From assembly GCA_006226595.1 (NCBI GenBank), contig SBGP01000030.1, positions 1 through 64,000 on the forward strand: a stretch of 64,000 bases of DNA, in the 5' to 3' direction. The DNA comes from Deltaproteobacteria bacterium (lineage in GTDB: Bacteria > Myxococcota_A > UBA796 > GCA-2862545). A program made the translations under genes and the position numbers. Shown piece after piece: positions 26,486 to 63,808 of this stretch (the first letter of the stretch is position 1; the number at the start of each line of letters is the position of its first letter). The notes beneath the pieces were generated by a model. It was not told the origin of the DNA, ran no database searches, and saw only the letters and a list, made by a program, of their open reading frames with translations.

Positions 26486-27847
26486 ATGCCTCGTCTGCTT
26501 CCCCTGCTCACCCTCCTCGCTTGCAACGGCCCCGGTGGCGACGACACCACCGACGCGACCACCTACGCGTTCGAGCGCGGCGGCGAGAGCTCGGTCTCGT
26601 ACAGCGGGCAGACCTTCCGGCACGTGCTCATCGACGACATGAAGGGCCACATCGGCGGACTCACCGACCGGCTCAACGGCGGCAGCTTCTTCCCCACCGA
26701 GGGCGAGGTCGCGGGTGAGCTCGAGTTCTACCTGGGCTTCGACTCGTCGGTCGCGGGCAGCCTCGAGGTCGGCTTCTCCGCGGACCTCCCCCTCGATCAG
26801 AGCGTCTACGACGACATCTCCAGCGACAAGAACCTCCGCGAGAAGCTCGCCGGCAATGACACGGTGACCGACCACGTCGACTGGCAGACCGCGTTCGTAG
26901 GCTGGCCGGGCGCCGAGAGCCCGGAGGCGCTGGTCGACCTGTGGGTTGACACCCTCGACGCCCAGGCCGTGGGCTGGAACAGCGCTCCTCCGCTCGATCC
27001 CGACGGCGCACCGGTGAGCGCCGTGTACGTGACCGCCGAGGGCCAGGACCTGCAGCAGCTGCTGCAGAAGTTCCTGCTCGGCGCCGTCGCCTTCTCCCAG
27101 GGTGCGGACGACTACCTCGACGACGACGTCGACGGAAAGGGCCTGCTCGCCGACCACAGCGCGCCGGCCGAGGGCAAGGCGTACACGGAGCTGGAACACG
27201 CGTGGGACGAAGGCTTCGGCTACTTCGGTGCCTCCGCGTCGTACGGCGAGTGGACGAAGGACGAGATCGCCGCCGGCGTGAAGGATGCCGACGACAGCGG
27301 CTCGATCGACCTCGGCAGCGAGGTCTGCTGGGGTGCCAGCGCCAACGCCGCCAAGCGTGACCTCGGCGCGGTGAGCGCCACCACGTTCACCGAGGACGCC
27401 TGGGCCGGCTTCCACGGCGGCCGTGCCCTGCTCGCGTCGATCGACGGCGACCTCGACGAGGCGCAGCTCGACGAACTTCGCGGCTACCGCGACCAGGCCG
27501 TGCTCGCCTGGGAGTCCGCCATCGCCGCGACCATCGTGCACTACATCAACGAGGTGATCGTCGATACCGAGGCCATTGGCACCGGCGACTACGACTTCGC
27601 GGGCCACGCCAAGCACTGGTCCGAGATGAAGGGCTTCGCGCTGTCGCTGCAGTTCAGCCCCCACAGCCCGCTGTCCGACGACGACTTCGCGGCCGTGATG
27701 GACAAGATGGGCACCGCGCCGGCCCTCGATGGGGACGACCTCACGGCCTACGCGACCGCGCTCCGCGAGGCGCGGGGCCTGATCGGCGAGGCCTACGGCT
27801 TCGACGCCGCCAACCTGGGAGACGAGCATGGACAGAACGGCTGGTAG
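26486..27847 (+). CDS. DUF4856 lipoprotein, first gene of a probable iron operon
   Basis: The protein has 453 residues. A short signal peptide ends at a lipobox-like LLAC. YAFERGGESSVSYSGQTFRH is the opening block of the DUF4856 family, whose members usually lie next to imelysin genes in iron-responsive loci. The rest is mainly helical and acidic (DDYLDDDVDGKG, KDADDSGSIDLG). It is expected at the cell surface or in the periplasm; its activity is unknown. GGAG lies eight bases before ATG 26486. The 3' end overlaps the imelysin-like gene by 20 bases. Confidence 0.8.
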   Translation: MPRLLPLLTLLACNGPGGDDTTDATTYAFERGGESSVSYSGQTFRHVLIDDMKGHIGGLTDRLNGGSFFPTEGEVAGELEFYLGFDSSVAGSLEVGFSADLPLDQSVYDDISSDKNLREKLAGNDTVTDHVDWQTAFVGWPGAESPEALVDLWVDTLDAQAVGWNSAPPLDPDGAPVSAVYVTAEGQDLQQLLQKFLLGAVAFSQGADDYLDDDVDGKGLLADHSAPAEGKAYTELEHAWDEGFGYFGASASYGEWTKDEIAAGVKDADDSGSIDLGSEVCWGASANAAKRDLGAVSATTFTEDAWAGFHGGRALLASIDGDLDEAQLDELRGYRDQAVLAWESAIAATIVHYINEVIVDTEAIGTGDYDFAGHAKHWSEMKGFALSLQFSPHSPLSDDDFAAVMDKMGTAPALDGDDLTAYATALREARGLIGEAYGFDAANLGDEHGQNGW

Positions 27848-29012
27848 TCGCCTCGGAAACGCGGCTCTGTTCGCGGGACTCGGCATTGCCGCGATCCTGC
27901 AGCCCGCGGCCTGTGACGCGCCCGGCGGCGCGAGCCTGCCCGAGGAGAGCATCGTCCTCGCGCTGGATCCGGTCGGTGGACTGATCCAGCAGGAGCTCGA
28001 GCAGTTCTCGTCCGACCTCGGAACCCTCGACGCCTCACTGGAAGCCTGGCAGCTGGCTCTCGAGGTTGGCGACGGCGTGACCGAGCAGCAGGCCGCTCAG
28101 GCCGACTTCCTGGTGGCCATGGCCACCTGGCAGCGCCTCGAGATGCTCCAGATCGGCCCCGCGGCGAGCTCGCTGACGGCGGTCGGCGGCGAGGACCTGC
28201 GCGACGAGGTCTACTCCTGGCCCGACGCGGTGAGCGGCTGTCGCGTCGACACGGAGACGGTCGAGGCGGTGTGGGACGAGGCGGACTTCTTCACCGCGAA
28301 CCTCGTGAACAGCTACGGCCTCGACGCGCTCGAGCACCTGCTCTTTGCGCCCCTCTCCACCGAGTGCCCGAGCCAGGTCGGCATCGACGCCCAGTGGACG
28401 GCCCTCGGCGACGCCGGCGTGCGCGCCAACCGCGCGGACTACGCCCGCGCCCTCGTCGCCCATTCGGACGGTATCGCGACCGAGCTCGCCACCCGCTGGC
28501 AGGCCGAGCTCACGACCGCGCTCATCGAGGGCGCCAGTCCGTGGGCAAGCCGGAGCGAGGCGCTGAACGAGGTGTACAACGCCCTGTTCTACCTGGATCT
28601 CGCGACCAAGGACCGCAAGCTCGCCGAACCCATGGGTCTGCGCGACTGCACCCTCGACTGCACGCTGTTGGTCGAGTCCGGCCTCTCCGACCACTCCGTG
28701 AGCTGGATTGCCGAGAACCTCGTCGCGACCCAGGCCGTGGTCCGGGGCGGCGAATCGGACGGTTTCGATGCGCTGCTCACCGAGCTCGGGCACGGCGACG
28801 TCGCGGTGGCACTCGACACCGCGATCACCGACGCCATCGCCGTCGCCGAGTCCATGGAGGACCAGCCCCTCGACGAGCTGATCACCGCGAACCCGACCGC
28901 GGCGACCGAACTGTACGAGGCGGTACAGCTCGTCACCGACCTGCTCTCTGGCGACTTCGCGACCGTGCTCCTCCTCGAGATCCCGAGCGAAGCCGCGGGA
29001 GACAACGACTGA
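27828..29012 (+). CDS. Imelysin-like (peptidase M75/IrpA family) protein
   Basis: The protein has 394 residues, starting at ATG 27828 behind GGGAG, with an export signal. TWQRLEMLQIGPA matches the conserved 'W...E..QxGP' of imelysins, and YGLDALEHLLFAP matches the GxHxxE region (normally G-F/x-H-A-I-E-x-L-L-F). Here the His is Asp. Imelysins are iron-regulated outer-membrane or periplasmic proteins thought to bind iron or a carrier; proteolysis is doubtful. The 20-base overlap with the DUF4856 gene and the receptor downstream support an iron-uptake role. Confidence 0.8.
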   Translation: MDRTAGSRLGNAALFAGLGIAAILQPAACDAPGGASLPEESIVLALDPVGGLIQQELEQFSSDLGTLDASLEAWQLALEVGDGVTEQQAAQADFLVAMATWQRLEMLQIGPAASSLTAVGGEDLRDEVYSWPDAVSGCRVDTETVEAVWDEADFFTANLVNSYGLDALEHLLFAPLSTECPSQVGIDAQWTALGDAGVRANRADYARALVAHSDGIATELATRWQAELTTALIEGASPWASRSEALNEVYNALFYLDLATKDRKLAEPMGLRDCTLDCTLLVESGLSDHSVSWIAENLVATQAVVRGGESDGFDALLTELGHGDVAVALDTAITDAIAVAESMEDQPLDELITANPTAATELYEAVQLVTDLLSGDFATVLLLEIPSEAAGDND

Positions 29013-29026
29013 TCGCGGAACTGCCG

Positions 29027-29914
29027 GTGGTGGACGCCCTGCTCGGACCGTTCATGGATCCGGGCAGCCGCACGTTCTGGGGTGGACTGGTCGCATCCGC
29101 GGCCGTCGCCGGAGCGGTGTGGTTGAGTGGCGGACACGCGAGCCCAGGGCGCTTCCTGGCGGCACTGCGCCACCGCTCCACCTGGCTCGACGTGCAGCTG
29201 TACGTGGGCCGACGCCTGCTCGGCCTCGCACTCGCTGGCGCGACGACGGGTGCCGCGTTCGCACTCGCCACCCATGGGGTTCGCCGCATCGACGCGCTCC
29301 TGGGACGACCCGAGCTCTCCGCGGACCCCACGGTCATCGTCGCGCTGTACAGCGTGTGCCTGTTCGTCGCATGGGACCTGTCGCGCTTCGCGGTGCACTA
29401 CGCCATGCACCGCATCCCCGCGCTGTGGGCGATCCATCAGGTCCACCACTCCGCGGAAGTGCTGACCCCGCTGACGTTTCACCGTATCCACCCGCTCGAG
29501 TCGCTCGTCTACCAGCTTCGCGGGCTGGTGGTCACCACGGCGATGGCCACGGGCTTCTTCTGGCTGTTTCGCGAGGCCGCGTCCCCATGGACGCTGCTCG
29601 GCGTGCACGGCATCGGCTTCGTGCTCAACGTCGCGAGTGGGAACCTGCGCCACTCCGAGGTGTGGCTGCGCTTCGGGCCAGCAGAGAACTGGCTGATCTC
29701 GCCTGCGCAGCATCAGATCCACCACGGTCTCGGCACCGACGACCGCAACTTCGGCACCTGGCTGGCGCTGTGGGACCGCCTCGCCGGGACCCTCGAGCTG
29801 GCCGGCCCGGAGCCGGTGGCCGCGTTCGGCATCGCCCCCGAGACCCGCAACCACGGGGACGACCTGCTCTCGGCATGGTTCGGTCCCGTGCGCGACATGC
29901 TGGGAGGCACGCGC
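29027..29914 (+). CDS. Sterol desaturase/fatty-acid hydroxylase-like domain, in frame with the next receptor
   Basis: About 296 residues with several membrane helices carry the three histidine clusters of the di-iron hydroxylase superfamily: HYAMH, HQVHH and HQIHH, plus FHRIHPLES. The start is uncertain: GTG 29027 (GGAA six bases upstream), GTG 29030 or ATG 29054. There is no stop codon at the end of this domain. The frame continues directly into the signal peptide and barrel of the TonB receptor, ending only at 32338. Either the protein is a genuine 1103-residue fusion, or the stop has been lost by mutation or sequencing error while the receptor is made from its own internal start. Confidence 0.75.
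29902..29907 (+). promoter_or_regulatory. Internal ribosome binding site for the FecA-like receptor
   Basis: GGGAGG lies seven bases before ATG 29915, the first codon of a classical signal peptide. It is inside the long open frame that begins with the hydroxylase domain. This site decides the start of the receptor and suggests that the receptor is translated independently of the fusion. Confidence 0.65.
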
Positions 29915-32338
29915 ATGCATGCCGCCGTTGCCGCGATGCTGCTCGCCGCTGGCGTGGCTCGCGCCGAGGAGCCCACGCCCTCGGACGAGGCCCCCTCGGA
30001 GCCGGCGACCGAGACCCCGACGGCATCCGAGGAGATCGCGCCCCAGGCTCCCGAAGCCGACACTCCGGCGCCCGAAGCTGCGCCTGCTCCGGAGGCTCCG
30101 GCCCCCGACGCCGACGAGCCGACGCCGGACGCCCGGGCAGTGCCCGCTCCCGAGACCGAAGTCCCGCCGCCCGCTTCCGCGACGGAAGACACCGCCCTCC
30201 CGCCCGAGGACGAGCCTGTCGACGATGGCAGCGACTGGGATGACTGGGACAGCGAGGACCTCATCGTCTACGCGCCGGACGGCACGCCCCGCGTCGCTGG
30301 CTCCGCGCATCAAGTCGACGCCGAGACGCTCGAGACCTGGGAGTACGACGACATCGAGAAGGTCGTCACCACCGTACCCGGCATCACCACCCGCGGCGAG
30401 GACGGCTTCGGCCTGCGCCCGAACATCGGCATCCGCGGCGTGAACAGTGACCGCAGCGCGAAGATCACGCTGCTCGAGGACGGCATCCCGCTGGTGCCCG
30501 CCCCCTACGCGGCCCCGGCCGCCTACTACTTCCCGATGAGCACGCGACTGGTGGGCGTCGAGGTCTTCAAGGGCCCCGCCGCCACCACGCACGGTCCCCA
30601 GACCGTGGGGGGCGCCATCAACCTCAAGACCCGCGACGTTCCGGAGGGCCCGGACGGCGGCCTCGATCTCGCGATGGGTCTGCGCGGCACCTACAAGGCC
30701 CATGCCTGGGGCGGAACCGGCGGCAAGCGAGCCGGCATCCTCGGCGAGGTGGTGCACCTGCAGACGGCCGGGTTCAAGCAGCTCGACGATGGCGGTCCCA
30801 CCGGCTTCGCCCGCACCGAGGCGATGCTCAAGGGCTTCGTGCAGCCCGCCGACGGCCACCGCGTGCAGGTCAAGCTCGGCTTCGCACACGAGAGCAGCCA
30901 CGAGACCTACCTCGGCCTCGCGATGTCCGACTACGAGGTCAACCCCTACCGGCGCTACGCCGCGAGCCAACTGGGCGACATGGCGTGGAACCGGACTCAG
31001 GCCGAGCTCTCGTGGAAGGCCGACCTCGGTGCCGTGCGGGTCCACACCGTCGCCTACCACCACTGGCTGAGCCGGGACTGGACCAAGTTCAACCGCTTCG
31101 CGAGCGGCATCGACACCCACGACCTGCTCCAGGCCGACCCGAGCGGTGGCAGCGCGGCCGCGTACATGGCCATCCTCCGCGGAGAGGCGGACAGCCTCAC
31201 GCCAGAGCAGCTGCTGCAGATCGGCACCAACCACCGCGAGTACCACGCGTTCGGCGTACAGACCCGCGGACGCTGGGAAGTGTTCGGCGAGGGCTGGTCC
31301 AGCACCCTGCGCTTCGGACTGCGCGTACACGGCGACCGCGTGTACCGGCGCCACACCGAGGAAGCGCACGCGATGACCGGGGGACAGCTGGTCCACGCCG
31401 GTGAGGACACCGAGGTGCTGCTCGACGCACGGTCGAGCGCCGACGCCCTGGCCGTGCACGTCCAGGAGGACTTCGAGGTCGGGCGCCTCCACGTGCTCCC
31501 CGGCTCGCGGGTCGAGGTCATCCAGACCGAGCAGCACGACGTCGGTGACAGCGCCAAGTCCCCCACCCTGCGCGCGGTGTGGCTGCCGGGCGTCGGCATG
31601 CTCGCCGCCCTCAGCGATGGCGTGGACGTCTTCGCCGGCATCCACAAGGGCTTCTCGCCCGTCGCGCCCGGACAGCCCGCCGAGGTCGACCCCGAGGTGA
31701 GCTGGAACAGCGAGCTTGGCATTCGAGCCCACTCGGGCGGCCTGCACGGCGAGCTCACCGGCTACGTCAACGACTACCTGAACCTCACCGGTCAGTGCAC
31801 GATCAGCGGCGGCTGCGACGGGGCCCTGGTCGATCTGCAGTTCAACGGCGGTCGGGTGCTCGTCGTCGGTCTCGAGAGCGTGGTCGGTCAGACGTGGATG
31901 TTGCCGAATGGCTGGAAGCTGCCGGTCGAGGGCACCTACACCCTGACCCACGGCCGCTTCCGCAGCGACTTCGTGTCCTCGTTCCCCCAGTTCGGCAGCG
32001 TGTCGGCCGGCGACGGCCTGCCCTATGTGCCCACCCACAGCGGCAGCGGACGCATCGGCATCGAGACCCGCCGCCTGCGTCTCGGCCTCGGCGCCACCGC
32101 ACGCAGCGGCATGCGTGACATCGCGGACAGCGGAGCCCTCGACGAGGACGACATCCCCGCACTGCTCCTGCTCGATGCGGCCGCGGAGGCCCAGGTCCTG
32201 CCGAATCTCGCGGTGTATGCCACCGGCACGAACCTGACCCAGAGCACGGCGCACACGTCCTGGCGTCCGTTCGGTGCCCGCCCCACGGCCCCACTCCAGG
32301 TCATGGTCGGCCTGAAGCTGTCTCCGGCGACCCGCTAG
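29915..32338 (+). CDS. FecA-like TonB-dependent receptor
   Basis: From ATG 29915 the protein has 807 residues. It has a signal peptide (MHAAVAAMLLAAGVARA), a Pro/Ala/Glu linker of about 80 residues, then the plug with VVTTVPGITTRGEDGFGLRPN, IGIRGVNSDRSAKITLLEDG and APYAAPAAYYFP. That block is very close to the ferric-dicitrate receptor FecA. VFKGPAATTHGPQTVGGAINL and a barrel follow. No N-terminal signalling domain of the FecA/FecR type is seen. The likely substrate is a ferric chelate. The stop TAG shares CTAG with the convergent gene. Confidence 0.88.
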   Translation: MHAAVAAMLLAAGVARAEEPTPSDEAPSEPATETPTASEEIAPQAPEADTPAPEAAPAPEAPAPDADEPTPDARAVPAPETEVPPPASATEDTALPPEDEPVDDGSDWDDWDSEDLIVYAPDGTPRVAGSAHQVDAETLETWEYDDIEKVVTTVPGITTRGEDGFGLRPNIGIRGVNSDRSAKITLLEDGIPLVPAPYAAPAAYYFPMSTRLVGVEVFKGPAATTHGPQTVGGAINLKTRDVPEGPDGGLDLAMGLRGTYKAHAWGGTGGKRAGILGEVVHLQTAGFKQLDDGGPTGFARTEAMLKGFVQPADGHRVQVKLGFAHESSHETYLGLAMSDYEVNPYRRYAASQLGDMAWNRTQAELSWKADLGAVRVHTVAYHHWLSRDWTKFNRFASGIDTHDLLQADPSGGSAAAYMAILRGEADSLTPEQLLQIGTNHREYHAFGVQTRGRWEVFGEGWSSTLRFGLRVHGDRVYRRHTEEAHAMTGGQLVHAGEDTEVLLDARSSADALAVHVQEDFEVGRLHVLPGSRVEVIQTEQHDVGDSAKSPTLRAVWLPGVGMLAALSDGVDVFAGIHKGFSPVAPGQPAEVDPEVSWNSELGIRAHSGGLHGELTGYVNDYLNLTGQCTISGGCDGALVDLQFNGGRVLVVGLESVVGQTWMLPNGWKLPVEGTYTLTHGRFRSDFVSSFPQFGSVSAGDGLPYVPTHSGSGRIGIETRRLRLGLGATARSGMRDIADSGALDEDDIPALLLLDAAAEAQVLPNLAVYATGTNLTQSTAHTSWRPFGARPTAPLQVMVGLKLSPATR

Positions 32339-62779: not shown

Positions 62780-63808
62780 ATGATCGACGCCAACGTCCTC
62801 GTGATGCCCGCCTTCGTCGGTCTGATGGCCGCGGAGTACGCCGTGGGCCGCGCGAGGGGCCACCAGCTGTACAGCCTCGGCGGCACCCTCGACGACGTCG
62901 CGAGCTCGCTCACCCATCTCGTCGGTCTCGCCGTGCTCGGCACGACCACCTTCGCGATGTACGAGGCACTGCGCGTCCACATCGCCGTCACCGCCTTCCC
63001 GATGGACCAGTGGTGGGCGTGGGTGCTCGGATGGGTGCTCTCGGACTTCTGCTGGTACTGGCGGCACCGCTTCGGGCACGACACCTCGCTGGGCTGGGCC
63101 ATCCACGAGGTCCACCACCAGTCGCGGGAGATGAACCTCGCCGTCGGCCTGCGGGTGAGCGCGTTTCAGTGGGCGCAGACCGCCCCGTTCATGCTGCCGA
63201 TGGCGCTGCTCGGCATGCCCATGCCGATGTTCGCGGCCATCTTCGGGGTCGCCCACACCTACCAGACCCTGCTCCACACCCAGCTGGTCGACCGCTTCGG
63301 GCCCTTCGGGTGGCTGCTCACCCAGCCCGCCGACCACCGGCTGCACCACGCGCGCAACCCGCGCTACCTGAACAAGAACTTCGGTCACAACCTGATCATC
63401 TGGGACCGACTGTTCGGCACCTACGCCGTCGAGGACCCGGCGGACCCGGTGGTGTACGGCATCGAACGCCCCCGCGCCGCGTGGGACCCGGTCCGCAACA
63501 ACCTCGAGCCATGGCTGGACCTCGTCGGTCGACGCGCCGAGCCGGGCGAGCCGATTCACGCCACGGCCACCCCCACCCATCGCGCGCTCGGCGTCGCGTG
63601 GTTCGCGGTGGCCCTCGGAAGCGCGGCCCTGCTCATCCAGCACCACGCGACCTGGCCGCTCGCCCTCCGCGTGGCCGCCGCCGTGTGGGTGCTGTGGACC
63701 TTCGGACATGCAGGACGCGTGATCGAGGGGCGTGCCAGCCCCTTGTGGGCCGAGGGAAGTCGCGTCGCCCTCGGCGCGGCCGTGCTCTTCGCCGCGGTCG
63801 GCGCATGA
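62780..63808 (+). CDS. Sterol desaturase/fatty acid hydroxylase superfamily protein
   Basis: The protein has 342 residues with several membrane helices. The di-iron histidine clusters are HRFGHD, HEVHHQS and HRLHHA. Such enzymes hydroxylate or desaturate sterols, fatty acids or ether lipids. It starts 4 bases after the desaturase stop; the stop TGA overlaps the ATG of the MMPL gene (ATGA). It is more complete than the hydroxylase domain fused to the FecA-like receptor at 29027 and is not its close copy. Confidence 0.9.
   Translation: MIDANVLVMPAFVGLMAAEYAVGRARGHQLYSLGGTLDDVASSLTHLVGLAVLGTTTFAMYEALRVHIAVTAFPMDQWWAWVLGWVLSDFCWYWRHRFGHDTSLGWAIHEVHHQSREMNLAVGLRVSAFQWAQTAPFMLPMALLGMPMPMFAAIFGVAHTYQTLLHTQLVDRFGPFGWLLTQPADHRLHHARNPRYLNKNFGHNLIIWDRLFGTYAVEDPADPVVYGIERPRAAWDPVRNNLEPWLDLVGRRAEPGEPIHATATPTHRALGVAWFAVALGSAALLIQHHATWPLALRVAAAVWVLWTFGHAGRVIEGRASPLWAEGSRVALGAAVLFAAVGA

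Follow-up and report, generated by a model that had tools for sequence, protein, structure and literature searches.

The window, i.e., the whole 64,000-nucleotide stretch of DNA analysed here, contains a gene in which a hydroxylase is joined in frame, through an internal signal-peptide-like segment, to a FecA-like TonB receptor. The fusion and a predicted signal peptidase site at its junction are conserved among relatives, and start codons for the receptor have been lost in many of them. It is likely that the gene encodes a polyprotein, from which signal peptidase would release an exported partner, leaving the enzyme in the inner membrane.

Architecture of the fused gene and its neighbourhood

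The features referred to below are the following.

26486-27847 (+): DUF4856 gene, with which the recognised part of the cluster begins (PF16148, 4.2e-20), also found upstream of the fusion in relatives
27828-29012 (+): imelysin (M75) gene (PF09375, 4.7e-22)
29027-32338 (+): fused gene, hydroxylase with internal signal peptide and TonB receptor, 1103 aa, GTG start
29027-29905 (+): hydroxylase module, residues 1-293, with its PF04116 match at residues 110-255
29396-29410 (+): histidine box HYAMH, residues 124-128, His invariant in 16/16
29435-29449 (+): histidine box HQVHH, residues 137-141, His invariant in 16/16
29711-29725 (+): histidine box HQIHH, residues 229-233, His invariant in 16/16
29891-29965 (+): internal signal-peptide-like segment, residues 289-313 (RDMLGGTRMHAAVAAMLLAAGVARA), with an equivalent in 38/38 fused genes
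29902-29917 (+): Shine-Dalgarno-like GGGAGG and ATG, a possible internal start read from the sequence, not conserved (such starts in 3/38 fusions)
29957-29965 (+): predicted site of signal peptidase I (A311-R312-A313), the cut following 29965; A311 and A313 invariant in 16 sequences
29966-30265 (+): acidic Pro/Ala/Glu-rich linker, by its sequence, with which the predicted mature receptor would begin
30293-30616 (+): receptor plug domain, residues 423-530 (PF07715, 1.4e-11, over cut-off)
30962-32236 (+): receptor beta-barrel, residues 646-1070 (PF00593, 1.2e-21, over cut-off)

Translation of the frame at 29027-32338 (+) yields 1103 residues without a stop, in which the Pfam matches to FA_hydroxylase, Plug and the TonB barrel all exceed their cut-offs. 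The earlier note had described one uninterrupted frame leading from a hydroxylase into a complete FecA-like receptor; this is confirmed, and its motifs and coordinates are correct (HYAMH, HQVHH and HQIHH; GGGAGG at 29902-29907, ATG at 29915-29917 and GGA at 29903-29905). The start of the gene was placed by the N-terminus conserved across aligned relatives, a second GTG being present at 29030. Upstream, the 3' end of the DUF4856 gene overlaps the start of the imelysin gene, the end of which lies 14 bases before the fused gene. The window imelysin has a Cys after a hydrophobic stretch at its N-terminus and is thus lipoprotein-like.

By its domain match (PF04116, 1.2e-21, 77.9 bits against a cut-off of 31), the hydroxylase is a member of the di-iron PF04116 fatty-acid hydroxylase family. 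It shares the domain and the invariant histidine boxes with the sterol desaturases and OlsE of the PF04116 superfamily but differs from them in being joined to a presumably exported partner, and it falls under the OlsE cut-off (24 vs 475 bits). Modelled alone with AlphaFold2, the hydroxylase part reaches a pLDDT of 92.3; its fold resembles that of predicted viral fatty acid hydroxylases, and no match to a solved structure was found in the PDB by fold or sequence profile. In the PF04116 superfamily the metal site is located on the cytoplasmic side. Since H276, the last invariant histidine, lies within a few residues of the module's end, the C-terminal tail should, by analogy, share the side of the metal site and be cytoplasmic, as a signal peptide requires. 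Further weak matches to the hydroxylase family can be found in the window at 63029-63466 (+) (1.3e-5) and, beyond it on the same contig, at position 66324.

In the AlphaFold2 model of the fused protein, two well-folded modules are separated by a low-confidence stretch (residues 295-409). The best solved match of the receptor half is FecA from E. coli (PDB 1kmo and 1po3; profile 1.6e-41), which is also its nearest solved fold (TM-score 0.84 by target length). Identity to FecA is however only 18%, FecA itself is not fused to an enzyme, and the cut-off of the FecA equivalog NF041676 (NCBIfam) is not reached (82.2 vs 1100 bits). From profile and model, the receptor half is a complete FecA-like TonB receptor with plug and barrel.

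The length of the open frame was dropped as proof of the fusion: the frame is open already from 27917, far past the gene and across the imelysin gene, over 1473 codons. On the opposite strand, 28589-32254 (-), a 1221-codon open frame faces the fused gene and is most likely a GC shadow frame. Because open frames are cheap in GC-rich DNA, a single genome proves little.

Conservation of the fusion among relatives

To collect relatives, 58 genomes were searched with the hydroxylase part; 27 close homologues from genomes other than that of the window were obtained and fetched with their surroundings. Contigs of named genomes were scanned with the fused alignment, 80 of the 279 related loci being taken, and 41 further stretches were fetched for the relatives set. 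In a search of the phylum, the hydroxylase was found in 64 of 377 genomes. Five weak hydroxylase loci were left out (G252, G256, G297, G342 and contig 71 of G337), and removal of duplicates by shared sequence reduced 100 entries to 74 hydroxylase genes, the near copies L096 and L104 both being kept. These 74 non-redundant genes comprise 38 fused to a receptor (the window included), nine fused to an imelysin, 23 unfused and four cut by a contig end.

Where a receptor lies directly downstream, the two are fused in frame in 38 of 41 cases, the window included; two pairs are split by a stop (L060, in which the stop overlaps a GTG start, and L082) and one is frame-slipped (L043). In the latter, the reading frame slips by one within a GC-rich part of the junction and the receptor has no start codon, reflecting either an assembly indel or a real frameshift. 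Within the phylum, the receptor fusions are spread over nine family codes, and one of them is from the isolate Paraliomyxa miuraensis SMH-27-4 (L072). In the stretches read at the Myxococcus, Corallococcus and Sorangium loci, the hydroxylase is absent and the receptor stands as a gene of its own. Hydroxylases without an exported partner behind them end, in most cases, shortly past their domain.

The comparison of related genomes for a stop between the two domains, as proposed in the earlier note, has thus shown in-frame fusion to be the rule, and the constant separation by a stop among relatives, which the note had named as refuting its reading, is not seen, only two of the 41 loci being split in this way. 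Its suggestion that a stop had been lost holds as regards the stop-free fusion, not as regards a recent change at 29903: relatives with only 44-64% full-length identity are fused too, and their retention of the fusion raises it above chance. Likewise, the arrangement was called rare; it has been found in one phylum alone, the only one searched systematically, and is common there.

The junction and its predicted peptidase site

All 38 fusion junctions display a basic stretch, then a hydrophobic core, then a small-x-small site. Most of these sites are of the AxA type (29), the others being VxA (five), TxA, AxG, AxS and SxA (one each), so that nine of 38 deviate from A-x-A and two of 38 end in a residue other than Ala. 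Between P287 and L435, an alignment of 16 fusions has no invariant columns other than A311 and A313, although in a wider alignment of 27 sequences the A-x-A columns are not invariant, some sequences having Val or Thr at -3. The cut sites were picked by a scoring rule of our own, hence the use of a strict version for controls: the strict rule was satisfied by 36/38 junctions vs 33/116 windows taken from inside the hydroxylases of these proteins (Fisher 1.1e-13), and shuffled junctions passed it in 13% of cases.

The n-region of the internal signal peptide was also examined for signs of translation. Its 468 codons contain no in-frame stop, against eight and three in the other frames and 5.4 expected, which is only modest evidence of translation. 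Codon periodicity was rejected as proof, the GC content by codon position (0.78/0.72/0.75) giving no clear signal. Over the 38 fused genes, GC3 in the n-region is below the amino-acid expectation (0.74 vs 0.84), a weaker version of the dip seen at true gene starts (0.66 vs 0.87 in 29 hand-picked unfused receptors). Located at codons -30 to -21 from the predicted cut, the dip of the fused genes could mean internal initiation, whether leftover or real; it is read here as a relic or as something that n-regions of signal peptides probably have in general.

A second fusion, between hydroxylase and imelysin

In nine genomes, from two other family codes of the same phylum, the hydroxylase is fused to the imelysin instead, with the receptor encoded on its own downstream (L171, L172, L173, L174, L175, L177, L183, L204 and L207). 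Both domains were confirmed with Pfam in 9/9, and a lipobox is present at each of the nine junctions (LGGC, LLSC, LIGC, VAGC and AGGC once each, TATC and VTGC twice each). A lipobox functions only when its Cys becomes the N-terminus, and its presence in the imelysin fusions therefore points to cutting at the junction. The strict lipobox pattern was discarded as a measure of the background rate: it is too strict, fitting just 34/80 unfused imelysins, and most of those outside it show, by eye, a Cys after a hydrophobic stretch.

Proposed processing of the fusion proteins

The following route can be proposed. Ribosomes would translate the hydroxylase, which would insert in the inner membrane and end on its cytoplasmic side. 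Translation would continue into the internal signal peptide, whose positive n-region would be the hydroxylase's own tail; the receptor part would be exported by Sec and cleaved by signal peptidase I after the conserved A-x-A. The freed receptor would then pass through the periplasm to be assembled in the outer membrane, leaving the hydroxylase in the inner membrane. The imelysin fusion would follow the same plan with a lipoprotein partner, a lipobox and signal peptidase II. The earlier note had found it hard to picture an enzyme of the inner membrane joined to a barrel of the outer one; if the conserved internal peptidase site is cut, the puzzle is gone.

An alternative, which the earlier note had considered, is a nested gene: most of the receptor would arise from internal initiation at ATG 29915, with read-through from the hydroxylase a mere by-product. 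In the window, GGGAGG (29902-29907) is found seven bases before this ATG, and the GC3 dip and the Shine-Dalgarno-like starts of three fused genes point the same way. Of the nine imelysin fusions, just one (L173) lacks every start codon, which counts against the polyprotein reading; six of these nine junctions are without ATG, and L174 has an ATG with a Shine-Dalgarno-like motif. However, 13 of the 38 fused junctions have no ATG, GTG or TTG at all and 28 have no ATG, whereas among 56 unfused receptors only the slipped L043 lacks any start and nine lack ATG; a start with a Shine-Dalgarno-like motif is seen in 3/38 vs 26/56. In the fused genes, starts were sought from the end of the hydroxylase to ten residues before the cut, and in the unfused receptors by a like rule; the stretch searched is often shorter in the fused set, yet covers everything outside the hydroxylase. 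The startless junctions include that of L038, from the same genus as the window, and internal initiation is, as judged from the junction sequences, not the general mechanism of the fused family. Moreover, the GC3 dip is about equally large in startless fused genes, the n-region of a receptor started at 29915 would consist of MH and be free of Lys and Arg, and no stop intervenes, so that ribosomes coming from the hydroxylase would still enter the receptor. Internal initiation as the main source of the receptor is thus improbable; the Shine-Dalgarno motif and ATG of the window are an exception among the fusions, and in this organism an internal start may act as a supplement.

It could also be imagined that the fused protein stays uncut and spans both membranes, with the receptor tethered to the inner membrane. 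The single stop-free frame and the long linker of the window (about 100 residues, 314-413) would be compatible with such a tether. A span of 56-58 residues is nevertheless too short to bridge the periplasm, and the predicted cut is separated from the plug motif by only 56 residues in L063 and 58 in L064, so the proteins of these two loci could hardly remain uncut across it. In addition, nothing else in the junction is as well conserved as the peptidase-type site, and the lipobox Cys of the imelysin fusions makes sense only as a new N-terminus, leaving the tether very unlikely. An assembly error or a recent stop loss in one genome, the genes being in fact two ordinary neighbours, would find some support in the ease with which open frames arise in GC-rich DNA and in the split or slipped relatives L060, L082 and L043. 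With in-frame fusions in 38 of 41 cases, drawn from numerous assemblies and including the genome of an isolate, it is refuted as a general account and is hardly credible for the window.

The polyprotein reading has a parallel in FbcH of Bradyrhizobium, the cytochrome b/c1 precursor, in which a polytopic inner-membrane protein and, behind it, an exported one are likewise encoded by one gene and reportedly separated by a signal-peptidase cut. FbcH gives two subunits of one inner-membrane complex, whereas the second product of the fused gene would be an outer-membrane receptor and that of the imelysin fusion a lipoprotein with a lipobox. As judged by titles and abstracts, no hydroxylase-TonB receptor or hydroxylase-imelysin fusion was found in the literature. 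On balance, the two fusions can be taken together as a modular strategy, in which the hydroxylase would serve as a membrane-borne leader for whichever exported partner of the cluster follows, signal peptidase I (receptor) or II (lipoprotein) splitting the products. Enzyme and partner would thereby be made in a fixed one-to-one ratio, and a polytopic inner-membrane protein would open the export route of an outer-membrane barrel. Should this be true, cleavage by signal peptidase allows a single bacterial gene to serve two different membranes, and the design is a repeated one, as seen from the two fusion types, each with its own kind of site. The co-translational export of an outer-membrane barrel behind an inner-membrane protein would become directly testable, and the question would arise of why a fixed one-to-one synthesis of enzyme and partner is favoured. 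Annotation would otherwise read such genes as odd chimeras.

Possible function of the cluster

DUF4856, imelysin, hydroxylase and FecA-like receptor form a recurrent cluster, which is probably involved in the TonB-dependent uptake of an iron complex. In Leptospira, imelysins are described among the genes up-regulated under iron limitation (PMC7567364). As in known iron clusters with an imelysin and a TonB receptor, the two adjoin each other in the window; the window-type cluster differs from these by the additional hydroxylase, fused to one or the other exported member. Both fusion partners belong to the same cluster, which would tie the hydroxylase to TonB-dependent uptake, where it would act either on the ligand or on a membrane lipid.

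Evolution of the fusions

A cleaned tree of 69 rows was used, from which the four contig-cut rows and the long row L203 were excluded and in which L043 was scored as fused. Receptor fusion requires eight changes on this tree, be they gains or losses, and imelysin fusion one. The nine imelysin fusions lie on one side of a branch whose support (78/69) is not strong. As far as the sequences tell, the receptor-fused state is old and conserved. In a first tree, which contained a wrongly chosen outgroup row, the receptor fusion L179 was placed among unfused genes, possibly reflecting a second receptor fusion or a transfer. In L051, the hydroxylase is followed by a signal-peptide-like tail and no receptor, and this tail is perhaps the relic of a lost receptor.
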